From positions 1 to 56,930 of the forward strand of contig FONU01000022.1 in assembly GCA_900112995.1 (NCBI GenBank): a stretch of 56,930 nucleotides of DNA. The letters run 5' to 3'. Positions 25,017 to 56,692 of this stretch are shown one piece after another. The position numbers were made by a program, and so were the translations under genes. Below the pieces are notes generated by a model. That model did no database searches and had not been told where the DNA came from. It saw nothing but the letters and a program-made list of their open reading frames with translations. Numbering within the stretch: position 1 is the first letter of the stretch; every line of letters starts with the position of its first letter. This DNA is from [Lactobacillus] rogosae. Its GTDB lineage: Bacteria > Bacillota > Clostridia > Lachnospirales > Lachnospiraceae.

Positions 25017-26714
25017 ATGTGGTTAGCTGATTTGGGCAATGGAAATTATAGGAATCCGATACTTTATGCAGATTATTCTGACCCTGATGCTATAAGAGTG
25101 GGAGAAGATTATTTTATGGTAGCATCAAGCTTTTCTAATTCGCCAGCACTTCCAATATTACATTCAAAAGATTTAGTGAATTGGAAGGTTGTTAATTATT
25201 GCTTGAAACACATTCCGGAATTCAGATATAACAATCCGCTGCACGGATGTGGTGTGTGGGCACCATCTATAAGATACCACGAGGGTACATATTATGTATG
25301 TTTTCCAATGCCAGATGAGGGAATATATATGACAACAACCAAAGATCCGTTTGGTGAATGGAGCGAGCCTGTTAATATAAGACCAGGTGCAGGCTGGATT
25401 GACCCTTGTCCATTCTGGGATGATGACGGTAATGCTTATCTTGTGGCAGGTGTTGCAAAGAGCAGAATTGGATATAAGAGTGTTCTTCATATAGTAAGAA
25501 TGAGACCAGACGGTATGGGGATATTTGGAGATGAAGTAAAGATATTTGATGGTAATGAGAATGATCAGATAACAATAGAAGGACCTAAAATGTATAAACG
25601 TAACGGATATTATTATATATTTGCACCAGCAGGCGGTGTTAAGACCGGCTGGCAGACAATACTCCGTTCCAAAAATCCATTTGGACCATATGAATATAAG
25701 GTTGTATTAAGACAGGGTGACTCTCCAGTCAACGGACCTCATCAGGGTGCGTGGGTAGATACAATTACTGGTGAGGACTGGTTCTTACATTTTCAAGATG
25801 TGTATGCCGCAGGCAGAATAACACATTTACAGCCAATGCATTGGGAAAATGACTGGCCAATAATTGGCGTTAATAAAGAGGGCAATGATTACGGTGAACC
25901 AGTTATGCAATATGTAAAGCCCAATATTGGAAAGACAGCAGAGGAGTTTAAGGACACAGATAAATATCCAGTATGTGAGCCAGACACAACAGATGAATTT
26001 GATACCGACAAGATGATGTTACAGTGGCAGTGGAATTCTAATTATGATGACAGCTGGTATGTGACTAAGACAGATGCCTATGGAAAGAAAACACCAGACG
26101 GCTCATATATAAGACTTAATGCACTTGCATCAACACCTCTTAGACCAGTGAGCGATTACAGAAATCTTCTCTTACAGAAATGGCCTGCACCTGAATTTGA
26201 GTGTGTTACTAAAATGTGCGTGAATGGTCTTGAAAATGGAGACTATGCCGGAATTGTGTCATTAGGCGTGGAATATGGAGCAGTTGGAATTGTCAAGAAT
26301 TTCGGGGAATATGCAATAAGGACAGTCAGAGGCACCCAGAGCTTTGATTGTGAGGCGGCATATTCTAAGGAAGATTTTAAGGACTATCCTATAGCTAAGG
26401 ATACATTTGCTGATAAGGAAAAGACTGTATATTTAAGGTATACAGTTAAGAGAACAGGAACTAAGGATACCAAGGAAATGGCACTGGCTGTTAAAAATGT
26501 TCCTGTAGAAGAGGTGACTTTGGAGATAAGCTTTGATGGAAAGGCTTATGAGAAGCAGGTGAGCTTTACAGCAAAGGCAGGACGCTGGGTTGGCGTTAAG
26601 AATGGAATGTTTGTTAATCATAATAATGAGATTAAGAATGAGAATCAGGGGGATGGATTTGTGACGGTTGATTATATCAGGTATAGATGTATAGACAACG
26701 GGAGATTGGATTAA
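25017..26714 (+). CDS. Glycoside hydrolase family 43 (beta-xylosidase-like)
   Basis: This 565-residue protein has no signal peptide and is likely cytoplasmic. The N-terminal five-bladed catalytic propeller shows the family hallmarks: the base aspartate in ADYSDPDAIRVG, GWIDPCPFWDDDGNAYLV around the second aspartate, and the acid glutamate in TIEGPKMYKRNG. A C-terminal beta-sandwich (from about residue 325) resembles the accessory domain of GH43 beta-xylosidases. It would cleave xylo-oligosaccharides, or arabinose- or galactose-containing oligosaccharides, after import. Of the in-frame start codons, ATG 25017 is the one with GGAGG at a good distance (eight bases). The stop codon lies inside the left arm of a repeat element. 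No sugar transporter is adjacent. Confidence 0.9.
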   Translation: MWLADLGNGNYRNPILYADYSDPDAIRVGEDYFMVASSFSNSPALPILHSKDLVNWKVVNYCLKHIPEFRYNNPLHGCGVWAPSIRYHEGTYYVCFPMPDEGIYMTTTKDPFGEWSEPVNIRPGAGWIDPCPFWDDDGNAYLVAGVAKSRIGYKSVLHIVRMRPDGMGIFGDEVKIFDGNENDQITIEGPKMYKRNGYYYIFAPAGGVKTGWQTILRSKNPFGPYEYKVVLRQGDSPVNGPHQGAWVDTITGEDWFLHFQDVYAAGRITHLQPMHWENDWPIIGVNKEGNDYGEPVMQYVKPNIGKTAEEFKDTDKYPVCEPDTTDEFDTDKMMLQWQWNSNYDDSWYVTKTDAYGKKTPDGSYIRLNALASTPLRPVSDYRNLLLQKWPAPEFECVTKMCVNGLENGDYAGIVSLGVEYGAVGIVKNFGEYAIRTVRGTQSFDCEAAYSKEDFKDYPIAKDTFADKEKTVYLRYTVKRTGTKDTKEMALAVKNVPVEEVTLEISFDGKAYEKQVSFTAKAGRWVGVKNGMFVNHNNEIKNENQGDGFVTVDYIRYRCIDNGRLD

Positions 26715-26815
26715 ATTAACATAAGTAACAAAGATATGCTTTCGCTGAGTGTCGCTATCAGCGGTACTAAAGTGCTAAAGTACAGCACTTAAGTGCCGGC
26801 GGCTCCACATATGGC
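26710..26815 (+). repeat. Structured repeat element, copy A (right arm lost)
   Basis: The core from 26745 to about 26808 matches copies B and D: CTGAGTGTCGCT, then GCGGTACTAA, an internal stem AAGTGCT/AGCACTT and GTGCCGGCGGCTCC. Its left outer arm (26710-26734) is 25 nt and almost identical to the left arm of the palindrome at 29655, with two C/T differences. No matching right arm follows. It begins on the stop codon of the GH43 gene. Confidence 0.75.
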
Positions 26816-26882
26816 TGGGACATAGGATGTATGGCAGGAGTTATTTTAGTTGTTGGAGATGTTTAATTAAATAGTTATGAAG

Positions 26883-26922
26883 AGTGTGTATTTTGCTGTA
26901 GTGGCGGAGTGCACACTTTTTT
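26883..26922 (+). terminator. Rho-independent terminator upstream of trkH
   Basis: AGTGTG and CACACT pair around a 23-nt loop, followed by seven T (from 26917). It probably ends transcription that reads through the repeat element. The rest of the 26816-27057 gap has no gene. Confidence 0.6.
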
Positions 26923-27057
26923 GTGGGAAGGTTTGGAAGCTGACATTAGAATATTTATGAGGATTTTGCTTGCATTGGAGAGCAGGGTGGTATATAGTAT
27001 CTTAAATGATAAATTTTATGAGATTTGAGTATAAATATTGCGATTTAAGGAAGTACT

Positions 27058-28359
27058 ATGATGGTTAATTTAATAAGAAAGCAGTCGCCTGCAAGAATAA
27101 TAGCGTTTGGGTTTATATTTGTGATTATAGCAGGGTCAGTGCTTTTGTCTTTGCCGTTTAGTGTTAGGGATGGTGTTGATTTAAAATACACGGATGCTTT
27201 GTATACATCAACGAGTGCAGTATGTGTAACGGGGCTTGTGGTGGTTGACTCATATGACACATTTACACCTGTGGGGCAATTTATACTAGGGGCACTTATT
27301 CAGATAGGTGGTCTTGGTGTGACAACTATGGGTGCCGGAATAATACTTGTTATGGGTAAAAAGGTAGATATAAAAGGACGTACTCTTTTAAAGGAAGCAC
27401 TGAATATGGATACGGCAAAGGGGCTTGTAAGGCTTATACATAAGATATTTATTGTTACGCTTATATTTGAGGGGGCTGGTGCAATAGCAGGTTTTCTGGT
27501 GTTTATAAGAGATTATCCATTTTTTAGGGCATTGGGAATAAGCGTGTTTCATTCGGTAGCGGCGTTTAATAATTCTGGTTTTGATATTCTTGGAAATAAC
27601 CAGAACCTTATTAATTACAGTGGTAATATAGCACTTAATATTATAACCTGTACGCTTGTATTTTTTGGAGGTATTGGCTTTTTTGTAATATGTGAATTGT
27701 GGGAAAAGAGATTTAAGTGGAAGAAATTCTCAATGCACACAAGGATTGTAATATCAGTGAGTATTGTGCTTATTATCGCTGGTGCTCTGCTTCTTAAGAT
27801 TACAGAAAATATCTCGTGGATGGGAGCATTCTTTATGAGTGTATCAGCCAGAACGGCTGGATTTGCAACATATTCACTTGGGACATTTTCAAAATCGGGA
27901 CTACTTGTGATTATAATACTTATGATTATAGGAGCTTCGCCGGGATCTACAGGAGGTGGAATAAAGACAAGCACATTTTTTGTCCTCATACAGGGTGTTA
28001 AGTCGGCGGCAACTAATAAGTCGGAGAAAGCATTTCATTATGCAGTACCTAAGGAAGCGTTCAGAAAGGCTTCGGTTATTATGATACTTGCTATGTGTGT
28101 TGTGACCGTGGGAGCTTATCTTATGGGAATATTTGAGCCGGATATTGATTTTATTGATATATTATTTGAGGTCGCAAGTGCATTTGGAACGGCAGGGCTT
28201 TCAACAGGAATTACACAACAGATAGGAATTGCAGGAAAGCTGTTATCTATTGTTATTATGTACATAGGAAGACTTGGACCGCTTACGATTGCTACATTGT
28301 GGCATTTCTCTAAGGGAGAGAGGATTAATTATCCGGAGGGTAATATAACTATAGGGTGA
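27058..28359 (+). CDS. Potassium uptake protein, TrkH/KtrB family
   Basis: This 433-residue membrane protein carries the four P-loop repeats of the TrkH/KtrB family, with selectivity segments TSAVCVTGL, FNNSGFDIL, SARTAGFAT and AFGTAGLSTG. The length is that of KtrB/TrkH of Firmicutes. It carries K+ (with Na+ or H+) across the cytoplasmic membrane when bound to a ring of TrkA/KtrA, and that subunit is encoded 600 bases downstream. AAGGA precedes the ATG pair at 27058 and 27061. The two subunit genes are separated by two structured repeat elements, which is unusual for this pair. Confidence 0.95.
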   Translation: MMVNLIRKQSPARIIAFGFIFVIIAGSVLLSLPFSVRDGVDLKYTDALYTSTSAVCVTGLVVVDSYDTFTPVGQFILGALIQIGGLGVTTMGAGIILVMGKKVDIKGRTLLKEALNMDTAKGLVRLIHKIFIVTLIFEGAGAIAGFLVFIRDYPFFRALGISVFHSVAAFNNSGFDILGNNQNLINYSGNIALNIITCTLVFFGGIGFFVICELWEKRFKWKKFSMHTRIVISVSIVLIIAGALLLKITENISWMGAFFMSVSARTAGFATYSLGTFSKSGLLVIIILMIIGASPGSTGGGIKTSTFFVLIQGVKSAATNKSEKAFHYAVPKEAFRKASVIMILAMCVVTVGAYLMGIFEPDIDFIDILFEVASAFGTAGLSTGITQQIGIAGKLLSIVIMYIGRLGPLTIATLWHFSKGERINYPEGNITIG

Positions 28360-28367
28360 TGATTGTG

Positions 28368-28545
28368 AAATATATGGGGCAACGGACGCTGGGCGGCTGG
28401 TAGAAGCAACGAAGACACGTTTGCACTGAGTGTCGCTCGCAGCGGTACTAAAGCGCTAAAGGACAGCGCTTAAGTGCCGGCGGCTCCCCATCGTCTTCTT
28501 ATGCTTCTACCAGCCGCCCAGCTGGGTTGCGATTGCCATATGTTT
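28368..28545 (+). repeat. Structured repeat element, copy B (complete)
   Basis: The core (28409-28504) is enclosed by a perfect 21-bp inverted repeat (28388-28408 with 28502-28522), extended by weaker pairing to 28368-28377 with 28536-28545. GAAGAC (28411) and GTCTTC (28493) close the core. Inside, GTCGCT and AGCGG sit before the conserved GGTACTA, and the internal stem is AAGCGCT/AGCGCTT. The first 43 nt of the core and its last 28 nt are identical in copy D. Confidence 0.85.
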
Positions 28546-28599
28546 AACAATTATCAGCGCCAGAACGGAGTGTGAAGAATTCGGGTGTGGTTTTGAGTG

Positions 28600-28800
28600 T
28601 GGATTTTTTGGTGATGGTGTCGTTTTTGTTATGGCATTAAGTTATGGTATATAAGATACGATATATATGTTATGGTTTTTAATTTAATTATATAGAAGAT
28701 ATAATATATATGTTAGGGCTTATAACTTATTATATAAAAGATATGATATATGTTATTGTTTGTGCATTATGATATATATATAAAATATGGTGTGTGAATG
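28600..28800. repeat. AT-rich degenerate tandem repeats
   Basis: This stretch consists of irregular repeats of ATATATGTTATG, AAGATATGATATATG and similar words. I see no gene or clear hairpin here. Confidence 0.5.
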
Positions 28801-28812
28801 TATGTGGAGAGA

Positions 28813-28924
28813 GTATTGATGTGCTGGCTTGGTGTCCGCTGCGGTTTCAAGTAGCGAAAGCGTGCCCAGCGGTAATATAGTCCGCACTCACAACGTCCGT
28901 TAGCCAACACCCAATCATCAATAC
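28813..28924. repeat. Second structured inverted-repeat element
   Basis: GTATTGATG (28813-28821) pairs perfectly with CATCAATAC (28916-28924); TGCTGGCT with AGCCAACA adds a second helix with one mismatch, and CCGCTG with CAGCGG forms an inner helix. The whole is a branched, G/C-rich hairpin about 112 nt long, 36 bases upstream of the RCK gene. It has the same layout as copies A, B and D, but its core is not clearly homologous to theirs. Confidence 0.55.
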
Positions 28925-28959
28925 ACACCCAACAATAATACGTGAATTCGGAGGTAATT

Positions 28960-29637
28960 ATGTTTAAAACTAGAATATCAAATAAAAATACTACTTATGG
29001 AATTATAGGTTTAGGAAGATTTGGCGAGTCGCTTGCATTATCGCTTGCTAACAGCGGTGCTGAATTTATGGTTATAGACAAAGATGAGGAAAAGGTAAGA
29101 GAAATGCGCGATTATACGGAAAATGCCTATGTCGTGCAGACACTTGACAAGAAAAGCCTTAGCGCAACAGGAATACAGAATTGTGATGTTGCAGTTGTGT
29201 GTATAGGTGAACATATTGATACGTCAATTCTTACAACGCTTAATCTTGTCAGTATGGGAATAAAAAAGGTTATAGCGAAAGCAAGAGGTCTTGAACACGG
29301 AGAAATATTGGCTAAGCTTGGGGCAGAAGTTGTATATCCTGAGAAGGATATGGCAGAAAGACTTGCTAACCGTCTTATAGCTTCGCAGGTTATAGATGTC
29401 ATTCAGCTTAGTGAGAAAATTAATATATCTAAGGTTATGCTTCCTGACAGGCTTGAGGGCAAAACAGTTGTGGATATTAATATGCGTAAGAAATTTAATG
29501 TTAATATAATTGCAATTGAGAATAATGGGGAAGTTATGCAGGTTGTAAATCCAGAGTATGTGTTTAGAAATGGGGATATATTGTATCTTTCGGGGAGTTC
29601 GGAAGGGCTTAATAAGTTTGGTGAGTGGATAGGCTAG
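28960..29637 (+). CDS. Potassium uptake regulatory subunit, TrkA/KtrA (RCK)
   Basis: This 225-residue cytoplasmic protein has an N-terminal nucleotide-binding RCK domain with GLGRFG (GxGxxG) and the acidic end of the second strand in MVIDKDEE, then a C-terminal RCK_C domain (about residues 140-225: SKVMLPDRLEGKTVVDINM). Rings of this subunit gate the TrkH/KtrB channel in response to NAD(H), ATP/ADP or c-di-AMP, depending on the family member. I start at ATG 28960, with GGAGG in place, instead of GTG 28942. Its partner TrkH-type gene is upstream. Confidence 0.95.
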   Translation: MFKTRISNKNTTYGIIGLGRFGESLALSLANSGAEFMVIDKDEEKVREMRDYTENAYVVQTLDKKSLSATGIQNCDVAVVCIGEHIDTSILTTLNLVSMGIKKVIAKARGLEHGEILAKLGAEVVYPEKDMAERLANRLIASQVIDVIQLSEKINISKVMLPDRLEGKTVVDINMRKKFNVNIIAIENNGEVMQVVNPEYVFRNGDILYLSGSSEGLNKFGEWIG

Positions 29638-29654
29638 ATAGGACAGACAATTAC

Positions 29655-29699
29655 ATTAAATCAACATAAGCAACAAAGACAAGCTTATGTTGATTTAAT
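29655..29699. repeat. Perfect 17-bp palindrome, core-less relative of the repeat family
   Basis: ATTAAATCAACATAAGC (29655-29671) pairs perfectly with GCTTATGTTGATTTAAT (29683-29699); the loop is AACAAAGACAA. Loop and left arm together match the left flank of copy A, and the loop carries the AAC(A/G)AAGAC word that borders the cores of copies B and D. A weaker hairpin CACC/GGTG followed by CCTTTTT (about 29709-29730) lies just after it, and both may serve as terminators between the convergent RCK gene and the cell wall hydrolase gene. Confidence 0.75.
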
Positions 29700-29746
29700 C
29701 CAACCTGACACCTTACAGGGGTGCCTTTTTGGCAGGAGATGGTTAG

Positions 29747-30856
29747 CTAATAGAAGACATGGTCGCCTATTATTGTGCCGCCTTTATCGACAGTGCTGTC
29801 GTAGACGTGAAAGTACAGAGCGGCGATTGTTATATGACCATTAAGAACCTCATTAGCGGCTCTGGTACATTCAGCGTTAGCACCTCTGGCAAGGACAATT
29901 GCGAAACGTCCACTTGCGACAGGGCTGAACTGGGAAGGGGCGTAGAGTACGGATTGGATTGTGTTGCCAAATTTAGGACTGTTTACACGATTTACGATAA
30001 CGCTTCCAACGGCAAGCTTGCCCTCATAAGGCTGGTTGGCAGCTTCACATTCTATCATAGCGGATACCATTGCAAGGTCGCTTGTATCATATGCTATAGG
30101 TGTATTATTAATGACTTCATCAACTGATGGGGTCATTTTTTTGATTTCTTCAAGCTGTCTTTGGATTTCTTCCTGACGGATACGTTCCTCGTATTCTAAT
30201 GCAAGGGCTTCAGCTTTGGCAATATTTTCAGAGTTAGTATCTATTTTTGACTGCTTTGAAGCTATGAGCCTTTTAATATTATTAGACTCAGCTATTGACT
30301 GCTCTTTTAAAGACACAAGTTCTGTCATATTAGTCTGTAGACTTAGCTGGTTCTGGTTAAGCACAGCAATAAGAGAACTTAATTCTTCAAGCATTTTGCG
30401 GTCATATTGGGAAATGCGCGAAACATATTCGTTTCTTTGCAATAAATCAGCCATACTTGAAGAAGAAAGCAATACATCAAGAAAACTATAGTCGCTGTTC
30501 TCGTACATATATTGTATACGAAGCTTCATAGTATCGAACTGGTGTTGTTTCTCAATCTCCATATTGCTTATGTTTTCATTAAGGCTGTCAATCTGTTCCT
30601 GTGTATCAGCAATTCTGTCATTAATAGAGTTCAGCTTTTCACCAGCATTATCAAGCTCTGAATTAAGGTCGTTAAGTTCACTTGAGAGCTGCGACTGCTC
30701 ATTTCTTAAGCGTTCAAGTTCTTTGTTATTATCATCATATTCTGTCTTGGTATCAGCAAGTGAATATACAGGTGATGTAACGGATATGAAAGTCAGGCAG
30801 ACAATGAGTGCCAACGCTATGTATTTAGTTACTGCATTAAAATGTTTCAACTGCAA
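29747..30856 (-). CDS. Secreted coiled-coil protein with SleB-type cell wall hydrolase domain
   Basis: This 369-residue protein starts at a TTG codon (30856) after AAAGGA; no ATG in the first 100 codons would keep the signal peptide. A cleavable signal is clear (about residues 13-33, IALALIVCLTFISVTSPVYS). A long coiled coil (about 36-225), similar to the N-terminal part of PcsB/CwlO-type peptidoglycan hydrolases, is followed by a SleB-type cell wall hydrolase domain (about 262-369: MVSAMIECEAANQPYEGKLAVGSVIVNR). The glutamate in IECEA is the likely catalytic residue of this lytic-transglycosylase-like family. It probably acts in the cell wall during growth or division; the coiled coil may be a regulatory part. 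Confidence 0.85.
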   Translation of the reverse strand: MQLKHFNAVTKYIALALIVCLTFISVTSPVYSLADTKTEYDDNNKELERLRNEQSQLSSELNDLNSELDNAGEKLNSINDRIADTQEQIDSLNENISNMEIEKQHQFDTMKLRIQYMYENSDYSFLDVLLSSSSMADLLQRNEYVSRISQYDRKMLEELSSLIAVLNQNQLSLQTNMTELVSLKEQSIAESNNIKRLIASKQSKIDTNSENIAKAEALALEYEERIRQEEIQRQLEEIKKMTPSVDEVINNTPIAYDTSDLAMVSAMIECEAANQPYEGKLAVGSVIVNRVNSPKFGNTIQSVLYAPSQFSPVASGRFAIVLARGANAECTRAANEVLNGHITIAALYFHVYDSTVDKGGTIIGDHVFY

Positions 30857-31139
30857 GTTATATCCTTTCTGATTCTATAAATTTGATGTCAGGAGTGGCT
30901 GAAAGTCAAAAGTCTTATCGTGCAGGCAAGAACAACTGTCAGACATTTTATACCTGATATCGTATTATTAATATTTTTTAGCTATAACACCAAAATCTTA
31001 ATATAGTATAAAATGTGTCCACATAAATTGCAAGCAGCCACAACGGGTGTTATTATTAATTAGCATATCAAATTAATGGTAATGAGATGATGAGAGTTTT
31101 ATCGTGGTATACTAAATTATAGAAAGAAAGAGGAATTAT

Positions 31140-33866
31140 ATGCTTGAATTAATTAATATTAAGAAAGATTATGAAACCGGTGATACAAAGGTTGCAGCTT
31201 TAAAGGGCATTAACTTAAGGTTCAGGGACTGCGAATTTGTATCAATACTCGGTCAGTCGGGCTGTGGTAAGACAACTATGCTTAATATTATCGGAGGACT
31301 TGATAAGTATACAAGTGGTGATTTAAGAATTAATGGTGTGTCTACTAAAGATTATAAGGACAGGGATTGGGATGCGTACAGGAATAATTCAATTGGTTTT
31401 GTATTCCAGAGCTATAATCTTATACCACACCAGACAGTTCTTTCTAATGTAGAGCTTGCACTTACATTATCAGGTGTATCAAAGGCAGAGAGAAGGAAAA
31501 GAGCAGTTGAGGCACTTGAGAAGGTAGGACTTGGTGAACAGATTCATAAGAAGCCTAACCAGATGTCAGGTGGACAAATGCAGAGAGTAGCCATAGCGAG
31601 AGCACTTGTCAATAATCCTGATATTCTTCTTGCAGATGAACCGACAGGTGCACTTGATACAGAGACAAGTGTACAGATTATGGAGCTTCTTAAGGAGATT
31701 TCCAAAGACAGGCTTATAATTATGGTTACGCATAACCCGGAACTTGCTATGAAATATTCAACAAGAATTGTAAGGCTTCTTGACGGAACTATTGTTGATG
31801 ACTCAGATCCATATACAGAGGAACAGCTTAAAAAAGACATAGCAGAGGGAACAGATAAGTCAGGCACAGCAACAGCCAATGGTTCAGCATATAATTCAGG
31901 CGTGTCAGGTCAGGGAACAAGTATATCTGTCTCAAAGACTCAAAGAAAGAAAAAGCCAAAGACCTCAATGTCATTTTTTACAGCATTATCTTTAAGTTTT
32001 AACAATCTGATGACGAAAAAGACAAGAACAATTCTTACAGCCTTTGCAGGAAGCATAGGAATTATCGGTATAGCACTCATTTTATCAATATCAAATGGTA
32101 TCCAGTTATATATTGACAGGGTGCAGAGGGATACATTATCAAGTTATCCAATCCAGTTACAGTCAGAAACTGTAGATATAAGTAGTATGGTTTCAAGTAT
32201 GACAGATAATGGCGGCAGTGGTGAAACACACGAGGATATGGATAAAATATATAGCAACAATATAATGTCTGATATGATGAATACTATGGTTGCAGAGGTT
32301 CAGAGCAACAACCTTAAGGAATTCAAGCATTATATAGAGAATGGTGGAAGCGATATAAAGGATTATGCGAGTGCCATAGAATATACTTATGATATTCCAG
32401 TTAATATATATAAGTCAGATACATCTGATAAGGTAACACAGCTTAACCCTAATACAATGTTTGATGCGATGTATGGCGGTTCTTCACAGAGCAGTATGAG
32501 TGGAATGAGCATGTACTCTAATTCAAGCGTATGGTCACAGTTATTTGATAATAAAGAGATACTTGAGTCGCAGTATACTGTACTTGCCGGACACTGGCCG
32601 GAAAGCTATAACGAGGTTGTGCTTGTTGTTAATGAGAACAATGAAATTGATGATTATACTTTGTATTCAATAGGACTTAAAGACCCTGACGAGATTACAG
32701 AGATGATTAAGGCTATGATGTCAGGAAAGAACTATACTCTTGATAATGATGAAACAACTTACACATTTGACGAGATATTAAATACAACATTTAAGCTTAT
32801 ACTTCCAACTGATGTATATTCGTATAATGAAAGTAAGGAAATCTGGGAAGATAAGTCTGATAATGATATATTTATGAAAAATGTTGTCAACAACGGAACA
32901 GATATAAAGATTGCAGGAATTATTAAACCTTCAGAAGAAGCAGTAAGTACATCTTTAAGCCGTGGAATTGGTTATACAAAGGAACTTACAGAATATATTA
33001 TCAATGGTGTTAATGACAGTGCTATAGCTAAGGCACAGCTTGCAGATGAGGATACAGATATATTCACAGGTGTTCCATTTGATAATAATAAAGATACACC
33101 TATAACAATGGATGATGTGCAGGCATATCTTGAGAGTCTTCCATCAGATGAGCAGGCACAGACAAGAATGTTCTTATCGACTATGACAGATGAGCAGATA
33201 CTTGATATGTTCTCGCAGTCAGTTAAGGCACAGACAACTGATGCGACACTGGAAACTAATAAAAGCAAGCTTGGAATAACTGATTTGGACGATCCGTCAG
33301 GAATTAATATATATCCATCAGATTTTGACTCTAAGGAGCATATTCAGAACATAATATCAGATTATAATACAAGCCAGCAGAAAGATGGCAAGGATGAAAA
33401 TGTTATCAACTACACAGACTATGTAGGAATAATAATGTCATCAGTAACAGTTATAATTAATGCTATTTCATATGTATTAATAGCATTTGTTGGAATATCA
33501 CTTATCGTATCTTCAATAATGATAGGAATTATCACTTACATTTCAGTTCTTGAAAGAACTAAGGAGATTGGCATACTTAGAAGTATAGGAGCATCAAAGA
33601 AGGATATTTCAAGAATATTTAACGCAGAGACACTTATTGAAGGCTTTGTTGCAGGTGCACTTGGTATAATTGTCACACTTATTTTATGTGTGCCAGCTAA
33701 TGCAATTATTAAAAATGTTACATCGATTGCCAATGTTGCACAGCTTCCTGTTGCAGGTGGAGTTATTCTTGTTATAATAAGTATGCTTCTTACGCTTATT
33801 GCAGGACTTATACCGGCACGACTTGCAGCAAAGAAAGACCCGGTAGTTGCATTGCGTTCGGAGTAG
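31140..33866 (+). CDS. MacB-type ABC transporter: fused ATPase and FtsX permease
   Basis: This 908-residue protein fuses a complete ABC ATPase (Walker A GQSGCGKTT near residue 38, signature MSGGQMQRVAI near 143, Walker B LLADEPTGALD near 165) to a permease. A linker (about 228-280) is followed by a first membrane helix (about 300-330, AFAGSIGIIGIALILS), a large extracytoplasmic domain (about 335-760) and three C-terminal helices, the FtsX arrangement, with SVLERTKEIGILRSIGASKKDI at the coupling helix. Such transporters export peptides or lipoproteins or transmit force across the envelope. RBS: AGAGGA. The substrate is unknown. Confidence 0.92.
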   Translation: MLELINIKKDYETGDTKVAALKGINLRFRDCEFVSILGQSGCGKTTMLNIIGGLDKYTSGDLRINGVSTKDYKDRDWDAYRNNSIGFVFQSYNLIPHQTVLSNVELALTLSGVSKAERRKRAVEALEKVGLGEQIHKKPNQMSGGQMQRVAIARALVNNPDILLADEPTGALDTETSVQIMELLKEISKDRLIIMVTHNPELAMKYSTRIVRLLDGTIVDDSDPYTEEQLKKDIAEGTDKSGTATANGSAYNSGVSGQGTSISVSKTQRKKKPKTSMSFFTALSLSFNNLMTKKTRTILTAFAGSIGIIGIALILSISNGIQLYIDRVQRDTLSSYPIQLQSETVDISSMVSSMTDNGGSGETHEDMDKIYSNNIMSDMMNTMVAEVQSNNLKEFKHYIENGGSDIKDYASAIEYTYDIPVNIYKSDTSDKVTQLNPNTMFDAMYGGSSQSSMSGMSMYSNSSVWSQLFDNKEILESQYTVLAGHWPESYNEVVLVVNENNEIDDYTLYSIGLKDPDEITEMIKAMMSGKNYTLDNDETTYTFDEILNTTFKLILPTDVYSYNESKEIWEDKSDNDIFMKNVVNNGTDIKIAGIIKPSEEAVSTSLSRGIGYTKELTEYIINGVNDSAIAKAQLADEDTDIFTGVPFDNNKDTPITMDDVQAYLESLPSDEQAQTRMFLSTMTDEQILDMFSQSVKAQTTDATLETNKSKLGITDLDDPSGINIYPSDFDSKEHIQNIISDYNTSQQKDGKDENVINYTDYVGIIMSSVTVIINAISYVLIAFVGISLIVSSIMIGIITYISVLERTKEIGILRSIGASKKDISRIFNAETLIEGFVAGALGIIVTLILCVPANAIIKNVTSIANVAQLPVAGGVILVIISMLLTLIAGLIPARLAAKKDPVVALRSE

Positions 33867-37831: not shown

Positions 37832-37832
37832 T

Positions 37833-45441: not shown

Positions 45442-45542
45442 AAAGAGGCTGTCATATCAGATATTGTTCATATAATATATAAACTGTAAGTAATAACTAA
45501 CAGATATATTGTATGGATTATGCCTGATATGACAGCCTCTTT
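45442..45542. terminator. Perfect 19-bp terminator stem with a 63-nt loop
   Basis: AAAGAGGCTGTCATATCAG (45442-45460) pairs perfectly with CTGATATGACAGCCTCTTT (45524-45542), with T-rich sequence at the right end. The loop contains another near-palindrome, CTGTAAGTAATAACTAACAG. It lies between the aldo/keto reductase (+) and the small ORF (-). Confidence 0.7.
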
Positions 45543-45558
45543 TCTTGTATGTCCGCTA

Positions 45559-49117: not shown

Positions 49118-49193
49118 GCTACATTTTGGAGTATTAACTCTACATTTTGTTGACAAACAGGTTGCAGAGGGGTACAATACAACAAATTGTAGC
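49118..49193 (+). promoter_or_regulatory. Consensus promoter with three copies of a CTACA-TTTG box
   Basis: TTGACA (49150-49155), a 17-bp spacer and TACAAT (49173-49178) make a near-perfect promoter. GCTACATTTTG (49118), CTCTACATTTTGTTG (49138) and, inverted, CAACAAATTGTAGC (49180-49193) are three copies of the same box placed before the -35, on its edge and at the start point. That layout suggests a repressor acting on the lipid/glycosyltransferase operon. The flanking 48980-49117 is AT-rich with no gene. Confidence 0.65.
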
Positions 49194-49248
49194 TTTTTGC
49201 TTTATATCTTATTCTATAAAGCAGACAGTGATTGGAGATGATAATATT

Positions 49249-50034
49249 ATGAAGGCTGACAGAACTATATATTATAGTTCATACACAGATGATGTTGTTA
49301 AAAGCCACAATCAGAGTTTTAAGTTAAAGACTAATTACGAATGGATAAATAACAGCTTATTATTTAAAATGGCTTCAATGGTTATATATGTATTGGCAAT
49401 AGTTATAGGTTACATATGCTGTAAGTTATTTTTTAATATAAGCTACAAGAATAGAAAGCTTTTAAAGAAGTGTAAGAAAGATGGCTATTTTGTATATGCC
49501 AATCACACACAGCCTGTAGGAGATGTTGTAATACCAGCACTTGCGTGTGTAGGAAAGAGAGTATATGTAATAGTAAGCCAGGCCAATTATGGAATACCCG
49601 TTATAGGTAAGATACTCCCAGAGCTTGGTGCACTTCCTGTTCCGGATTCCATAAGCCAGTATAAGAAGTTTACAGAAGCGTATAAGAAGCACATTGAGCA
49701 GGGTCATCCTGTTATTATATATCCTGAGGCACACGTCTGGCCGTATTATACACAGATAAGACCATTTGAGAAGACGTCATTCCGTTTTCCAGCGGAGCTT
49801 AATAAACCGGTGTATGTGATGACGACAACATATACGCATAGACATTTTCTTAAGAACATTATAAAAAGACCAAAGGTCAATGTGTATATTGATGGACCGT
49901 TTTATCCAGACACAGGTGCAGGAATAAAGGATAACCAGAAGATGCTTCACGATAGGGTATATGAAGTTATGAAGTCGCGAAGTCATCTTAGCGATTATGA
50001 ATATATAAGATATGAAAGAAAGAATGTTATGTAA
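49249..50034 (+). CDS. 1-acyl-glycerol-3-phosphate acyltransferase-like protein (first)
   Basis: This 261-residue protein has one N-terminal membrane helix (about residues 40-60, ASMVIYVLAIVIGYICC) and the PlsC acyltransferase core: the histidine block reads NHTQPVGDVV, with five residues between His and Asp instead of the usual four (HX4D), and IYPEAHVWPYYTQIRPF corresponds to the glycerol-phosphate block. It would transfer an acyl chain to lysophosphatidate or another lipid acceptor at the membrane. I start at ATG 49249; the TTG-started longer frame from 49147 overlaps the promoter. It is the first gene of a four-gene lipid/glycan operon. Confidence 0.82.
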   Translation: MKADRTIYYSSYTDDVVKSHNQSFKLKTNYEWINNSLLFKMASMVIYVLAIVIGYICCKLFFNISYKNRKLLKKCKKDGYFVYANHTQPVGDVVIPALACVGKRVYVIVSQANYGIPVIGKILPELGALPVPDSISQYKKFTEAYKKHIEQGHPVIIYPEAHVWPYYTQIRPFEKTSFRFPAELNKPVYVMTTTYTHRHFLKNIIKRPKVNVYIDGPFYPDTGAGIKDNQKMLHDRVYEVMKSRSHLSDYEYIRYERKNVM

Positions 50035-50055
50035 TAGCATTGCAGGATTACAGAT

Positions 50056-50901
50056 ATGAATATATTGTTTTGTGGAGATAAGAATATACAGAATGGGCTT
50101 CTTATAGCGGTTATATCATTATTGGAACACACCAAAGAAGACCTTGATGTATATGTATTAACGCTTGATATGTCTGTTAATGATAAGCATTATGAGCCGA
50201 TAGATGGCAGACTTTCTGACTATTGTAATACAGAATTATCGAAGAAATATGATAACAGACTTCGTATTAAATTTATTGATACGTCCGGTTTATTCAATAA
50301 AGAAGTGCCTCTTGCCAATATGTCGACAAGATTTACGCCATGCTGTATGTTAAGATTATTTGCAGATGAGATAGCAGAGCTTCCAGACAGGCTGTTGTAT
50401 CTTGATACTGATATAATATGCAGAAAAGATTTTACAGAATTTTATTATCAGAATATGGAAAATGTAGAGATAGCTGGAGTTCTTGATTATTACGGAAGCT
50501 GGTTTTTTAGAAAGAACATTTTTAAAAGAGATTATCTTAACTCGGGAGTGCTTCTTATGAATATGGTACAGTTAAAGAAGACGGGGCTTTTAAAGAAATG
50601 CCGTGAAATGTGTACTTCAAAGCAGATGTTTATGCCAGACCAGTCGGCACTTAACAAGTTATCGGTTAATAAGAAGATATGTGAAAGAAAATATAACGAC
50701 CAGAGAAGACTTCACAGTGATACAGTATTCCAGCATTTTACAACACATTTTAAGTTCTTTCCTTATGTCAGGACAGAAACAGTGAAGCCGTGGCAGACAG
50801 AAGAAGTATTTGAGGCGCTTAAAATACCAAGAGAAGAATACGAGGTATTGTTTAATAAATACAAAAATGCTTTGGCAGAGCTTGGCAGCTATGAAATATA
50901 A
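50056..50901 (+). CDS. Glycosyltransferase family 8 (first)
   Basis: This 281-residue protein has the GT8 pattern: FCGDKNIQNGLLIAVISLLEHTKEDLDVYVLTLD near the N terminus, the metal-binding DxD in LLYLDTDIICRKDF (about residues 114-127), YLNSGVLLMNM and a C-terminal H-x-T/H region (VFQHFTTHFKFF). GT8 enzymes transfer galactose, glucose or xylose from UDP-sugars with retention. It is placed directly after an acyltransferase and before a second GT8, so a glycolipid substrate is likely. AGGA precedes the ATG. Confidence 0.87.
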   Translation: MNILFCGDKNIQNGLLIAVISLLEHTKEDLDVYVLTLDMSVNDKHYEPIDGRLSDYCNTELSKKYDNRLRIKFIDTSGLFNKEVPLANMSTRFTPCCMLRLFADEIAELPDRLLYLDTDIICRKDFTEFYYQNMENVEIAGVLDYYGSWFFRKNIFKRDYLNSGVLLMNMVQLKKTGLLKKCREMCTSKQMFMPDQSALNKLSVNKKICERKYNDQRRLHSDTVFQHFTTHFKFFPYVRTETVKPWQTEEVFEALKIPREEYEVLFNKYKNALAELGSYEI

Positions 50902-51003
50902 TTATTATTTATGAGTATTTGTACAGATTAATGAAATTAAAATATGTAAATAAAAATATTAAAATAATTAAAATAATAAAGATAATTGGAATGGAGAATT
51001 AAT

Positions 51004-51972
51004 ATGATTAACAAGAATGAGATAATACCAATATTTTTTACAATTGATGATGCATATGCACCATATCTGCATGTTGCATTAATATCACTTATTGAAAATG
51101 CTTCAAAGGACAGAAACTACAAGATAATAGTAGTTTACCAGGAGCTTAATGAGGAGAATAGAAATAATCTTGCTGAACTGGTTAAGGATCATCCTAATTT
51201 TGAGATGGAATTTAAGTATATGAAGCAGAGCCTTGATATGATAACAGACAGAATTGAGAACAGACTTCGTTCAGATTATTTCACAATGACAATATATTTC
51301 AGAATATTTATTCCAGATATGTATCCGGAATATGATAAGGCTATATATATAGACAGTGATATAGTTGTTCCTGGCGATATATCAGAGCTTTATGATACAG
51401 ATATGCACGGCAATCTTATAGGAGTGTGCAAAGATAGTTCAGTTAATGATGCTCCTGAATTGCAAAGATATATGACAGAATCACTTGGTTTAAAGCTTGG
51501 TGATTACTTTAATTCAGGTATGCTTCTTATGAATATGAAGGCTTTAAGAGAGGTTAATCTTGCAGAGCATTTCTTATATCTTCTTAATAAATACCATTTT
51601 GACTGTATCGCACCAGATCAGGATTATCTTAATTCTATGTGTTATGGTAAGATAGAATATCTTGAATCCTGCTGGGATGCAATGCCTAACAGAAATAAGC
51701 CTGAGAATCCATCACCTAAGATAATTCATTATAATTTATTTGATAAGCCTTGGTGCTATGATGGAATTCAGTACGAGAGTTATTTCTGGGATTATGCTAA
51801 ACGTTCTGTTTATTATGAAGACATTGTTAAGAGCAAAGAGAATTATTCAGATGAACAGAAGGCAGAGGATAAAGAGCATATGGCTGATCTTTTCAGAAGA
51901 GCAGGAGCTAATGCAGATACAGAAGTAACATTTAGAAAAGTGCTTGAAAGTGGAGAAAAGATAAGATTATGA
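51004..51972 (+). CDS. Glycosyltransferase family 8 (second)
   Basis: This 322-residue GT8 protein shows IPIFFTIDDAYAPYLHVALISLIENAS at the start, the DxD motif in KAIYIDSDIVVPGDI (about residues 113-127), DYFNSGMLLMNM, LAPDQDYLN-like APDQDYLNSM and the C-terminal IIHYNLFDKPW. The start at ATG 51004 has GGAG six bases upstream; a TTG-started longer frame from 50986 is less likely. Its last codons overlap the following acyltransferase by four bases (ATGA), so coupling is strict. The two GT8 proteins could add two sugars in sequence to one lipid. Confidence 0.88.
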   Translation: MINKNEIIPIFFTIDDAYAPYLHVALISLIENASKDRNYKIIVVYQELNEENRNNLAELVKDHPNFEMEFKYMKQSLDMITDRIENRLRSDYFTMTIYFRIFIPDMYPEYDKAIYIDSDIVVPGDISELYDTDMHGNLIGVCKDSSVNDAPELQRYMTESLGLKLGDYFNSGMLLMNMKALREVNLAEHFLYLLNKYHFDCIAPDQDYLNSMCYGKIEYLESCWDAMPNRNKPENPSPKIIHYNLFDKPWCYDGIQYESYFWDYAKRSVYYEDIVKSKENYSDEQKAEDKEHMADLFRRAGANADTEVTFRKVLESGEKIRL

Positions 51973-52835
51973 TAATAGGTGGAAGCAAGAAGGAAGTTGT
52001 TGCTAATATTAAAAATGCGGCAGATAACGGAAGGTTTAATGACAAAGTAGAAATCGGCGATCCGGAACTTGACAGTACAAGAAGAAAAAAGCTTCTTGGC
52101 AAATATGTAAAACAGCGTAATGAAATTCCATATCATTACAGGAACTGGCTTGCAAGAAGAATTGTTGATTTTATAACTTTTGGCGTTAATGCTAATACAA
52201 AGGTTGTAGGTGCAGAGAAGATTAAACATATTAAATCAGGAGCTATTATAACAAGTAATCATTTTAATCCTGTTGATACAACGATTATAAGATATGGAAT
52301 TAAGAAGGCAAGAAGATACAGAATGTTTATCGTAAGTCAGGATACTAACTTTGCAATGAAAGGTTTTCTTGGTTTTCTTATGAGATATGCAGATGAAATT
52401 CCAGTCAGCAAAGATAAGGATTATATGGAAAGACATTTTTATAGAACACTTAATAACCTTCTTGTTAATAAGAAAGAGTATATTCTTATATATCCAGAGC
52501 AGGAAATGTGGTTTAATTACAGAAAGCCTCGTCCACCAAAGAGGGGGGCATACTTTTATGCAGCCAAGTTTAATGTTCCGATTATATCGTGCTTTGTTGA
52601 GATGAAAGATATGGATAAGGATGATACAGAGGAATTTAAAAGAGTTAAGTATGTTCTTCACATATTAGACCCTATATATCCAGACCCGGAAAAGAATGAG
52701 CGTGATAACAGCTTTGATATGATGAAAAAAGATTATGAGCAGAAGAAAGCAGCTTATGAGCAAATATATAAAAGGCCTCTTGATTATGCTTTTAGTGACA
52801 GTGATATCGCGGGCTGGAAAGGGACAACAGAATAG
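51969..52835 (+). CDS. 1-acyl-glycerol-3-phosphate acyltransferase-like protein (second)
   Basis: This 288-residue protein has the canonical PlsC histidine block SNHFNPVD (HX4D, about residue 95), FIVSQDTNFAMKGFLGFLMRYADEIPVSKD, and IYPEQEMWFNYRKPRPPKRGAYFYAAKFNVPII for the second and third blocks. The start overlaps the previous gene as ATGA. Unlike the first acyltransferase it keeps the normal spacing of the HX4D motif. No long membrane segment is obvious, so it may bind the membrane surface. It completes the four-gene operon. Confidence 0.87.
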   Translation: MIIGGSKKEVVANIKNAADNGRFNDKVEIGDPELDSTRRKKLLGKYVKQRNEIPYHYRNWLARRIVDFITFGVNANTKVVGAEKIKHIKSGAIITSNHFNPVDTTIIRYGIKKARRYRMFIVSQDTNFAMKGFLGFLMRYADEIPVSKDKDYMERHFYRTLNNLLVNKKEYILIYPEQEMWFNYRKPRPPKRGAYFYAAKFNVPIISCFVEMKDMDKDDTEEFKRVKYVLHILDPIYPDPEKNERDNSFDMMKKDYEQKKAAYEQIYKRPLDYAFSDSDIAGWKGTTE

Positions 52836-52910
52836 CAGAGGCAATTTTGTACTGTGACTTTAATAGTCCTTGTACAGGAAAATAACAGAAAAAAGAATAT
52901 TAAAAGTAAA

Positions 52911-52967
52911 GTGTGTATCTTACAGGCAGCTATAATTGGGTAGTTATCTGACGGATACACATTTTTT
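52911..52967 (+). terminator. Terminator of the acyltransferase/GT8 operon
   Basis: TGTGTATC pairs with GGATACACA and is followed by TTTTTTG. It lies 75 bases after the stop codon. Loop length is about 33 nt. Confidence 0.75.
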
Positions 52968-53033
52968 GTGTAATAGTGAATTCTGATAGAATTCATTTTA
53001 AAATTAAAATGCCTTAAATGAGAAAAATTATCC

Positions 53034-53062
53034 TTGCAAAATACCCACAGGGGGTATATATT
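53034..53062 (+). promoter_or_regulatory. Copper-operon promoter with CsoR operator in the spacer
   Basis: TTGCAA (53034-53039), a 17-bp spacer and TATATT (53057-53062). The spacer carries ATACCC-ACAGG-GGGTAT (53041-53057), the G-tract/C-tract inverted repeat of CsoR-type operators. Copper would release the repressor and allow transcription of the three genes that follow. Confidence 0.8.
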
Positions 53063-53112
53063 ATAGATGATGATATTAACACAGTAATATAGCAGGCGAA
53101 AGGAGTGGTTGA

Positions 53113-53421
53113 ATGGCAGAAGATAAACAATGCTGTTGTGGCAGCAAGATGAAAGAAAGAAGTGATTCAGAGAAGAAGCTTCTTCTTAACAGATTAAAAA
53201 GGATAGAAGGCCAGATAAGAGGAATATACGGTATGGTTGAGAATGATGCCTACTGTATAGATATTCTTAATCAGGCACTTGCCGCTAACGCGGCGCTTAC
53301 TGCATTTGATAAAGCATTACTTTCTAATCATATTAAGACCTGCGTAGTTGATGACATAAAGAATGGTGATGATGAGGTAGTTGATGAACTTATTATGACA
53401 ATGCAGAAGTTTATGAAGTAA
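53113..53421 (+). CDS. csoR: CsoR/RcnR-type copper-sensing repressor
   Basis: This 102-residue helical protein has the DUF156 core NRLKRIEGQIRGIYGMVENDAYCIDILNQ and LLSNHIKTCVVDDI. The Cys in AYC, the His in NH and the Cys in KTC give the C-H-C set that binds Cu(I) in CsoR. The N terminus also has a short Cys cluster (QCCCGS). An operator of the expected form lies in its promoter, and copper-handling genes follow. AAAGGAG is the ribosome binding site. Confidence 0.92.
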   Translation: MAEDKQCCCGSKMKERSDSEKKLLLNRLKRIEGQIRGIYGMVENDAYCIDILNQALAANAALTAFDKALLSNHIKTCVVDDIKNGDDEVVDELIMTMQKFMK

Positions 53422-53435
53422 GAAAAGAGGTATAT

Positions 53436-53798
53436 ATGGGAACAGCGATAATAATTGTAGTATTAGTTATTATAGTAATATTTGCAGTAAAAAGCGGCAT
53501 AAAGCACGGCAAAGGAGAAGGCGGCTGCTGTGGCAGCGGTGGAACAATGAAAGAGGACAAGAAAGTGCTTGCAGGTGACATAATTGCAACTAAGCTTGTA
53601 ACAATTGAGGGTATGCACTGCGATAACTGCAAGAACAGCATAGAACATCAGATTAACAGAATAGATGGAGCGGCCTGTGAAGTTAATTTAAAGAAAAAGA
53701 CAGCTGCAATACAGCTTGATAAGCCTGTTGATGATGATTTAATAAGAAGAACTATAGAAAGATTAGATTTTAAGGTAGTAGATATTAAGACAATATAA
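53436..53798 (+). CDS. Membrane-tethered copper chaperone-like protein
   Basis: This 120-residue protein has a single N-terminal membrane helix (about residues 3-18, TAIIIVVLVIIVIFAV), a Gly/Cys-rich linker (GGCCGSGG) and one heavy-metal-associated domain (about 50-120) with the metal-binding GMHCDNC. It looks like a CopZ-type domain attached to the membrane, with the domain on the cytoplasmic side if the positive-inside rule is applied to GIKHGK. It lies between the repressor and the exporting ATPase, so it may hand Cu(I) to CopA. The N-terminal layout (helix plus Cys) resembles the 56-residue protein at 4907. Confidence 0.8.
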   Translation: MGTAIIIVVLVIIVIFAVKSGIKHGKGEGGCCGSGGTMKEDKKVLAGDIIATKLVTIEGMHCDNCKNSIEHQINRIDGAACEVNLKKKTAAIQLDKPVDDDLIRRTIERLDFKVVDIKTI

Positions 53799-53837
53799 TT
53801 AATGTGCTTAACAGATTAAGGGAGGAGATGATACATT

Positions 53838-56510
53838 TTGAAACAATACAATGTTACAGGGATGACCTGTGCCGCGTGTCAGGCAAGAGTTGAGAAAGCT
53901 GTATCCAAGGTTCCTGGTGTAACTAGCTGTTCAGTCAGTCTGCTCACTAATTCAATGGGCGTTGAGGGTGCAGCCGCAGACGAGCAGATAATAAAGGCAG
54001 TAACCGATGCAGGATATGGTGCAAGCATAAGAGGTTCAGAAAGTTCAGGTAGTAAAAGTGAAGGCAATCAAACAATAGCAGGACTTGAGGAATCGCTTAA
54101 AGATACAACAACACCTAAGCTTGCCAAAAGACTTGTGGCATCGCTTGTATTTCTGCTTATACTTATGTATTTCAGTATGGGACATATGATGTGGGGCTGG
54201 CCGCTTCCAGGTGTACTTGAGAATAACCATATAGCTATGGGACTTATACAGATGCTTCTTACAATAATAATTATGGTTATTAACCAGAGATTTTTTATAA
54301 GTGGTTTTAAAAGTATGCTTCACGGCTCACCTAATATGGATACGCTTGTAGCACTTGGCTCTGGTGCAGCATTTTTATACAGCACATATGCCTTATTTGC
54401 GATGACTGATGCACAGGTGCGTATGGATATGGATGGTGTAATGCATTATATGCACGAATTCTATTTTGAGTCAGCGGCAATGATTCTTACACTTATAACA
54501 ATAGGTAAAATGCTTGAGGCCCATTCAAAAGGAAAGACAACAGATGCACTTAAAAGCCTTATGAAGCTTGCGGCGACAACAGCGACAGTAGTTATTGATG
54601 GTAATGAACAGGTTGTTCCGGTAGAACAGGTTCACAAAGGGGATACATTTGTTGTAAAACCAGGAGAGAATATTCCTGTTGATGGTGAGATTATAGAGGG
54701 TATGAGTGCGGTTAATGAGTCAGCCCTCACAGGAGAGAGTATCCCGGTCGATAAAAATGTCGGTGACAGTGTATCAGCGGCAACTCTTAACACATCAGGT
54801 TATATAAAATGTGTTGCAACAAGAGTAGGTGAGGATACAACTTTATCAAAAATTATACAGATGGTAAGTGATGCGGCGGCAACTAAAGCACCTATTGCAA
54901 AGATAGCAGATAAGGTATCAGGAGTATTTGTGCCTGTAGTAATAGGAATCGCAGCAGTTACTATTATAGTGTGGCTGTTAGCCGGACAGAGTGCTGGATT
55001 TGCACTTGCAAGAGGAATATCGGTGCTTGTTATAAGCTGTCCTTGTGCACTTGGACTAGCAACGCCAGTTGCTATTATGGTTGGTAATGGTGTTGGTGCT
55101 AAGAATGGTATAATGTTTAAGACAGCCATTTCACTTGAACAGACTGGTAAAATGCAGATTGCTGCCCTTGATAAGACAGGTACAATAACAGCTGGTGAAC
55201 CGGTAGTTACTGATGTTGTAAGTGCAGATGGAATTACTGACGACAAGCTTATATCAATAGCGAAGCTGTTAGAGGCAAGAAGTGAGCATCCACTTGCTAA
55301 AGCTGTTGTGAATTACGATTATACAGCAAAGCAGAATGATTATTCAGATATTATATCAATAGATGTATCAAATGCAGTTGCAGGAAATGGGCTTGAAGCC
55401 AGTGCACAGTATATTAAAGCATTTGAGGCGGACAGTGCAGATATTTCTGATAAAATCAGCTTATACGGCGGTAATGCAGATTATATAAGCAAAAAGGCAA
55501 CAATACCACAAGAATATATAAAAAAATCCTACGAGCTTTCAGGCGATGGAAAGACACCTATGTTCTTTGCAACAGATAAAGAATTCTTAGGAATTATCGC
55601 TGTTGCCGATACAATAAAAGAGGACAGTCCTAAAGCCATAAAGGAATTAAAGGATATGGGTCTTTATGTTGTAATGATAACAGGTGATAATGAAAGAAGT
55701 GCCAATGCGATAGGAAAGATAGCAGGTGTTAATGAGGTTATTGCAGGAGTTCTTCCGGACGGTAAGGAAAAGGAAATACAGCGTCTTAAGAAGTATGGCA
55801 AAGTAATAATGGTTGGTGATGGAATTAATGATGCACCAGCATTGACATCAGCAGATATAGGTATTGCGATTGGTGCAGGAACAGACGTGGCGATTGATGC
55901 AGCAGATGTTGTTATTATGAAGAACTGCTTAAGTGATGTTGCGGCGGCTATCAGGCTCAGCCACAGGACGATAAGAAATATCCACGAGAACCTGTTCTGG
56001 GCATTCATATACAATATAATAGGAATTCCACTTGCAGCAGGTGTGTGGATACATCTGACTGGCTGGGAGATGAATCCTATGTTTGGTGCGGCGGCGATGA
56101 GCCTTTCAAGCTTCTGTGTTGTGACTAATGCTTTAAGGCTTAATCTTGTAAAGATATATGACACAGCAAGAGATGAGGTATACAAAAAGAGAGCTGCCAG
56201 AAAGGGTCTTATTGTTAAGACAACAGACAATACTGATAATAGCCCTGTGAATAATATTACATCACAGGATATTAATAATAAAAGAAAAGAGGATAATAAA
56301 ATGACAAAGACAATGAATATTGAAGGTATGATGTGTGGACACTGTGAGGCAAGAGTAAAGAAGGCATTAGAGTCAGTTGACGGTGTAAGCGGGGCAGTTG
56401 TAAGCCACGAGAAGAATGAGGCTGTCGTGACACTTGCAAAGGAAGTTGATGATGAGGTACTTAAGAAGGCTGTGGAGGAGCAGGATTATAAGGTGATAGC
56501 GATAAATTAA
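53838..56510 (+). CDS. copA: Copper-exporting P1B-type ATPase with C-terminal HMA domain
   Basis: This 890-residue ATPase exports Cu(I) from the cytoplasm. It starts at a TTG (53838) after GGAGGAG; an N-terminal HMA domain (GMTCAAC, residues 8-14) is followed by eight membrane helices, the actuator TGES motif, CPC at residues 401-403, the phosphorylation site DKTGT (445-449), SEHPLAKA and the hinge GDGINDAP. After the last helices comes a Lys/Arg, then Asn/Asp/Ser-rich linker (about 785-820) and a second HMA domain with GMMCGHC (Cys833, Cys836). An in-frame ATG at 56301 preceded by AGAGGA could also start the terminal HMA as a separate 69-residue chaperone. Length is greater than that of a standard CopA because of this extra domain. 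Confidence 0.95.
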
Positions 56511-56550
56511 TTGAGGTTGTGAGGATTAAGAACGGGAGGTTGTGAGTGAG

Positions 56551-56692
56551 GATTGGGGAAGCTTATAGTTACAACGAAGACACGTTTGCACTGAGTGTCG
56601 CTCGCAGCGGTACTAAGTCGCCAGCCAGGGCTGCCGACTAAGGACCGGCGGCTCCCCATCGTCTTCTTATGCAACTATAAGCTTCCTCAATC
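56551..56692 (+). repeat. Structured repeat element, copy D (complete)
   Basis: Outer arms 56551-56570 and 56673-56692 pair over 20 bp with one mismatch (GGAAGCTTATAGTT with AACTATAAGCTTCC in their inner 14 bp). The core is closed by GAAGAC (56576) and GTCTTC (56661). Its first 43 nt and last 28 nt are identical to copy B, while the internal hairpin differs in sequence (AGTCG-c-CAGC with GCTG-c-CGACT). It starts 41 bases after copA. Confidence 0.85.

Follow-up and report, generated by a model that had tools for sequence, protein, structure and literature searches.

Small mobile DNA hairpins of Roseburia-related gut bacteria, a family that appears not to have been described before

In [Lactobacillus] rogosae, contig FONU01000022.1 (assembly GCA_900112995.1), analysed here entire as the window of 56,930 nt (C18 in an assembly of 2.8 Mb and 49 contigs), carries several copies of a hairpin-forming repeat that raises a question of kind: does so elaborate a palindrome, with a fixed core and a compensating inner stem, belong to a transcript or to the DNA itself? 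The first-pass annotation, made on three copies (A, B and D), proposed either a structured RNA in 3′ untranslated regions (UTRs) or a mobile unit inserted in the loops of terminator-like palindromes. The outer palindrome is a property of the DNA rather than of the transcript, and mobility is established in relatives through terminal repeats and target-site duplications (TSDs). We consider it likely that the window copies (A, B, D and a fourth, C) are partly decayed members of a group of small non-autonomous DNA elements, similar to miniature inverted-repeat transposable elements (MITEs) and found mainly in Lachnospiraceae, whose tip would be recognised by shape and whose helper would act in trans. 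The family of small mobile DNA hairpins in Roseburia-related gut bacteria to which they belong is large and apparently undescribed so far. Its conserved tip recurs on copies with unrelated arms, a pattern that speaks for a structure in DNA and against an RNA gene.

Strand symmetry of the palindrome and distribution of the family

A helix selected in RNA tolerates G.U and not A.C, while a DNA palindrome treats the two alike, each being the opposite-strand equivalent of the other; counting one against the other is a simple strand-symmetry test for RNA-like repeats. The count was made on 116 distinct copies, with G.U and A.C ranked equally and with outer stems that lie outside the covariance model R1 (built from 22 aligned copies with short inner hairpins, alignment A3, plus an assigned structure). 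Outer stems, found in 113 of the 116, contained 4557 Watson-Crick, 244 G.U, 227 A.C and 540 other combinations (G.U versus A.C, p 0.46), in an alignment that may overrun the element ends. From this near-equality of G.U and A.C it follows that the palindrome is a DNA-level property. A positive control on tRNA acceptor stems (3 G.U and 0 A.C in 11 tRNAs) was too small to carry weight.

By simple gene calls based on open reading frames (ORFs), the upstream gene was codirectional with the copy in 52 of 108 cases (neighbouring genes were usable for 109 of the 116 distinct copies, and one of these 109 lay inside an ORF). No replication-strand bias was seen in genome G214, with 12 leading to 10 lagging by hand count of 22 listed among its 37 copies; the skew rests on 20 sampled pieces, its sign changes twice more than expected along the contig, and the strand of three copies at about 1.19–1.21 Mb is uncertain. 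The position after a codirectional gene that had been described for A, B and D holds for those three (a GH43, a TrkH and a P-type ATPase gene, respectively, by Pfam) and fails both for C, which sits close to B, in the gap that separates the TrkH gene from the one after it (with TrkA_N and TrkA_C domains), and for the family. A 3′-UTR RNA as the general rule is ruled out by this random orientation together with the wobble symmetry: the outer-stem wobble is not favoured on a given strand, and the structured-RNA proposal is left unsupported. No Rfam family matches the element at gathering score: the Rfam search of the window returned only tRNA and thiamine pyrophosphate (TPP) matches, and that of five loci at E ≤1 returned six weak microRNA matches, all in L142 and outside the element. 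Strong covariation plus a conserved core can imitate a structured RNA even though the pairing is a property of DNA.

The covariance-model search of family genomes that had been proposed yielded many further copies. By blastn, the core of B hits 20 places in its own genome and a typed type 2 composite 19, partly overlapping; R1 at an E-value of 0.001 gives 27 matches there and 21, 37, 5, 35, 17 and 46 in six other genomes. At E 0.01, R1 matches 17 of 41 genomes (the own genome and 40 relatives) and none of 16 from other families of the same order. The repeat is widespread in the window's own family, with at least 89 of 200 sampled genomes matching at E 0.001 when the best 19 candidates per genome were scored, a number that many genomes reached. 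Across the phylum at least 5 of 398 genomes reach E 1e-4; four belong to the same family, and a single weak match (2.7e-5) lies outside it, under strict filters and with the best nine candidates per genome, so that absence here is soft. A scan of named genomes returned 15 stretches with a 21-base pattern, 14 of which also match R1: four in Roseburia inulinivorans DSM 16841 (Lachnospiraceae), four in Lachnospiraceae metagenome-assembled genomes (MAGs) and the remainder in Eubacteriales, Eubacterium, Clostridium and Clostridiaceae MAGs. The host family is called Lachnospiraceae because these named matches include R. inulinivorans and the Lachnospiraceae MAGs. The fifteenth stretch, in a Halobacteriales MAG (L177), has no R1 match and is a chance match. 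The core of B has no match in plasmids and two part-matches in phages, both in unannotated faecal records; IMG/VR gave no exact match to the pattern. Searches of open-access papers by host and by kind, at the level of titles and abstract openings, gave no description of the repeat family.

Ends, duplications and a candidate helper

The evidence for movement comes from copies with intact ends. Among 80 loci supplied to the TSD test, 57 copies were bracketed by AGGCNNTTGCGAAACTC ends; 51 of the 57 measure 202–210 bp, and 28 have a TSD of at least 8 bp, against a mean of 0.18 and a maximum of 2 in the swapped-flank control (TSDs were scored at 8–14 bp, mostly 10–14, including up to two boundary bases). 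Near-identical copies are present in genomes G013, where they are bounded by TAGGCGTTTGCGAAACTC-like ends, and G224, and in the window's own genome copy L009 has terminal ends and a 12-bp TSD. Like MITEs, the elements are short, with no room for a transposase gene, and multicopy (5 to 46 matches per genome in seven genomes); terminal inverted repeats and TSDs are present in part of the family only, and not in A, B or D. The earlier suggestion of a mobile unit therefore stands for the relatives.

The stem ends, read by eye, are conserved within each subtype (type 1 GATTGG..AAGCAAC, type 2 GTTGTG..ATATTACCGCTGGG) around a locus-specific middle, and since these conserved ends lie outside the variable stem, much of the stem is part of the element. 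The statement that outer arms have no similarity to each other was thus too strong, being correct for the middle and not for the ends. Elements that lack the hairpin apex retain the same ends, some with visible duplication, again by eye. Solo or minimal terminal-repeat remnants without arms or core were also seen at L139 (1856) and L149 (1811–1855), the former flanked by an apparent duplication. Seven of 21 own-genome copies, D included, lie inside an additional inverted repeat of at least 8 bp (3.8% in the swapped-flank control), and several such repeats around own-genome copies are A+T-rich.

Eleven loci were examined for an autonomous element, and only L185, in genome G083, has facing ends (about 1.76 kb apart): it is a broken 1.76-kb element with nearly the same ends, one mismatch each, whose stop-free pieces match DUF772 (E 4e-12). 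The transposase domain DDE_Tnp_1 (PF01609) has two matches in G000 and none in G013, G130 or G012. Solo ends at eight loci in G013 and G130 showed, by reading and with no ORF protein search made, no paired ends with a transposase.

An intact element is one long imperfect palindrome in which the arms lead into a conserved asymmetric tip. Its transposition would most likely depend on a DDE transposase of IS1182-like type, supplied in trans from an element with nearly the same ends; the window copies, lacking ends, would have moved in the same way as their relatives. The tip may be retained since the transposase or a host factor recognises folded DNA by its shape, which would leave the stem sequence free, and recombination may exchange tips between copies. 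Shape recognition would fit the finding that the stem sequence is free while the asymmetric tip is kept. If the tip is such a module, it would provide a natural setting in which to study protein action on extruded DNA hairpins.

Tip and arms

The tip, or core, has three parts: on its 5′ side a protruding 2-bp mini-hairpin, then a helix that carries an A.A mismatch besides an AG bulge, and an inner hairpin of variable sequence. The inner-stem covariation noted in the three first copies persists in more: in alignment A4, whose 116 distinct sequences are not independent (about a fifth come from the own genome), standard pairs fill 97.5% of pair cells versus 79.2% when shuffled, and both partners have changed in 17 of 19 core pairs, in an alignment that was fitted to the structure and so leans toward it. 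By eye, a helix RCUUG/CAA(A)GY appears to covary also (L041, L047, L030 and others). Read on the minus strand, 111 of 114 four-base loops of the mini-hairpin have the sequence GNRA, two copies having loops of other length, and both closing pairs are G-C in 94 of 116 copies. The commoner form, GC-GNRA-GC, by its sequence falls under the rule that PMC4686876 gives for DNA mini-hairpins of extraordinary stability (at least two G-C pairs and a loop of the form GNA or GNNA); d(GCGAAAGC) appears in the reference list of that paper. Wobble in the core favours T.G over C.A by 38 to 14 (p 0.001), with 26 of the T.G at one pair (86–196) and 12 versus 13 without that pair; inner hairpins have 12 G.T and 24 A.C (p 0.065, 92 distinct).

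Arms and tip do not travel together throughout, and this modularity is the most unusual trait of the family. Ten copies taken from 29 matches in G021 were sorted by arms into set A (six) and set B (four), between which the arms are 50% identical (shuffled, 49%) and the core 92%, as it is within sets; L236/L241 and L239/L242 have in common a 94-nt block, 98.9% identical and sharp-edged, while one inner-hairpin variant is identical across both sets and a second is common except for one loop base. Four of five aligned G214 copies have different ends, by eye, with ACAGCCCC on the right and GGGGCTGT or a near match on the left. The shared core in G021 and the other ends in G214 therefore give tip and arms partly separate histories. 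Among recent copies, arms and core diverge by 5.1% versus 2.6% in G224, 4.3% versus 2.9% in G130, 1.8% versus 1.0% in G013 and 12.7% versus 2.6% in G223. The ratio of paired two-sided to one-sided arm changes is 10:16 in G224 (14 copies), 3:21 in G130 (15 copies, with a further four two-sided unpaired changes), 2:5 in G013 (nine copies) and 13:6 in G223 (six copies), the divergent L226, L230 and L234 (G224), L205 (G130) and L117 and L118 (G013) being left out and L235 and L211–L217 not being aligned for this count.

Some loci are unusual in their arrangement. At L006 (G000:C12:63137–63245) the usual CTGGGTTGCG of the right outer arm is replaced by CGTCCGTT, which is complementary to the left end, as if this arm had been copied from the other. 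Locus L103 of G146 has four tandem cores on the same strand with a period of 148 bp (1353–1903), and inverted core pairs about 60–510 bp apart occur at L042, L049, L076, L092, L095, L066, L100, L010 and L152, with differing arms and inner hairpins in several cases. A long form in G130 has, by eye, about four extra hairpins at the position of the inner hairpin (L142 1653–2000 and L143 1298–1652, in opposite orientations).

Several results weigh against the reading of A to D as decayed mobile elements with a shape-recognised tip and a helper in trans. Recognisable ends are rare in the general set of 116 copies (both in 13, one in 8, none in 95; one end in 3 in the wrong-orientation control) and absent from A, B and D, and TSDs are not in excess among 21 own-genome copies other than L009, B and D included (two of the 21 have at least 8 bp, versus 7% in the control). 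The stop-free pieces of L185 reach 21.9 and 25.1 bits against IS1182 transposases, where the cut-off is 270, and the gene is broken; a relative was found in one of 15 genomes, G083 itself, and the recent copies of G013 and G224 are without an identified helper. Two-sided arm changes dominate in G223 only, so that constant palindrome repair is not general. In B, the mini-hairpin is missing from the minimum-energy DNA folds. Finally, two core pairs, chosen after seeing the table, vary through T.G and not C.A (30 versus 1 cells), a bias that would fit a plus-strand single-stranded fold, of RNA or of DNA.

The last point bears on the improbable alternative that a structured regulatory or trans-acting RNA was spread by transposition and is now selected as RNA, with the core as its functional domain. 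Strong core covariation (in an alignment that leans to the structure), the minus-strand GNRA loops and the plus-strand T.G bias are what such an RNA would predict; the two strand clues conflict with each other, however, the GNRA loops pointing to the minus strand and T.G to the plus, and wobble symmetry extends from the outer stems to the core bar one pair, with gene orientation random and Rfam without a match. Still less attractive are REP/REPIN-type repeats mobilised by a Y1 (RAYT) transposase, which we regard as very improbable: the repeats are palindromic, intergenic and dispersed, with inverted pairs at several loci, but the TSDs, the 202–210 bp length of most bracketed copies and the long variable arms speak otherwise.

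Another reading, raised in the first-pass annotation, is that the core alone is mobile and enters the loops of pre-existing palindromes. IS1272, of the IS1182 family, offers a parallel, since stem-loops are its targets in the stem-loop-replacing transposition proposed in PMC5678879. The sharp-edged 94-bp core common to unrelated arms in G021, the other terminal sequences in G214 and the seven own-genome copies inside additional inverted repeats all agree with loop entry, but homologous exchange between core-bearing elements explains shared variants equally, core-less relatives resemble deletion products by eye, in the type whose ends can be recognised the TSD-flanked ends are situated beyond the arms, and no core-less hairpin with G021 set-B arms was found in four genomes with one exact pattern; we think loop entry unlikely. 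A bolder version, possible though doubtful, would make the core a new kind of cap for DNA hairpins, about 94 bp long and recognised by its shape, one strand of which forms a mini-hairpin with a GNRA loop, mostly d(GCGNRAGC). Several palindromic families unrelated to each other would have captured this cap, and it would move from tip to tip, perhaps by entry of a folded single strand into hairpin loops; arms and tip would then have separate histories.

Copies in the window and known systems compared

The existence of A, B and D with a common core is confirmed, with minor corrections. Copy B (28388–28522, plus strand) is a full hairpin, with a perfect 21-bp outer stem, as reported (arms 28388–28408 and 28502–28522), the core and an inner variable hairpin AAGCGCT..AGCGCTT (28451–28471); its DNA fold has z −9.2 on the plus and −7.5 on the minus strand. 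Copy D (56551–56692, plus strand) is also a full hairpin, with outer arms (56551–56573 and 56670–56692) that are 23 nt long and 91% paired, in place of the 20 bp with one mismatch first given, an inner variable hairpin AGTCG..CGACT (56616–56639) and z values of −6.6 (plus) and −7.6 (minus). On the minus strand both have the mini-hairpin GT-GCAA-AC, a GNRA loop with one G-C pair only (28419–28426 in B, 56584–56591 in D), and the minimum-energy DNA fold forms it on the minus strand of D. Two blocks are identical between them, one of 28 nt as described (from 28477 in B and 56645 in D) and one of 45 nt (from 28407 and 56572) that had been measured as 43. Beyond the arms of D lies the A+T-only additional inverted repeat ATAAATTAATT / AATTAATTTAT (56502–56734), which on its left reaches into the end of the ATPase gene.

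Copy A (26720–26825, plus strand) is a type 1-like core that has lost its outer stem (score 18, cut-off 20), so that locus-specific outer stems hold for B and D and not for A; its minus-strand mini-hairpin is of the commoner form, GC-GAAA-GC (26738–26745). Copy C (28815–28879, minus strand), absent from the first description, is a truncated and reversed type 2 copy, matched by blastn of the type 2 query at 28836–28878 (95%) and lying within an imperfect inverted repeat (28803–28821/28916–28934, 79%). Unfiltered, R1 scores B at 102.8 bits (28401–28506), D at 84.2 (56566–56674), A at 70.5 and C at 34.2 (E 7e-7, minus strand); B and D are part of the seed alignment A3, so that their scores are partly by construction, and A and C lie outside it. 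Three additional matches in the window (E 0.09–0.7) are noise or part-matches. Perfect inverted repeats of at least 18 bp with a spacer of at most 130 nt occur at two window sites, B and 45442, and in none of 20 mononucleotide-shuffled windows. At the second site (45442–45543), arms of about 19 bp pair perfectly around a 65-nt loop, and TTTTCTT comes next; the site resembles a long-stemmed terminator and, having no R1 match, is outside the family. The TPP match is a riboswitch (Rfam RF00059) at 13679–13788 on the minus strand.

Prokaryotic MITEs are short and multicopy, with terminal inverted repeats and TSDs, and the elements described here are like them in each of these respects; they differ in that one palindrome makes up most of the length and that an asymmetric conserved tip is common to differing arms and ends. 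With REPINs they share a palindromic, dispersed and mobile nature, and from REPINs they differ in size, TSDs and anatomy. Integron attC sites act as folded DNA in which the stem sequence is free and extrahelical features are conserved, and the tip may work in a similar manner, although membership is not claimed. ERIC, BOX, RUP and YPAL are dispersed hairpin repeats too, in the accessible part of PMC2267715, which makes no mention of Lachnospiraceae, but the present repeats have locus-specific arms and a fixed tip. The likeness to the IS1182 family lies in L185, which contains IS1182-like pieces between ends nearly identical to those of the repeats, and in the action of IS1272 on stem-loops; unlike IS1272, whose new insertions were without TSDs in PMC5678879, the family described here includes copies with TSDs, scored at 8–14 bp.

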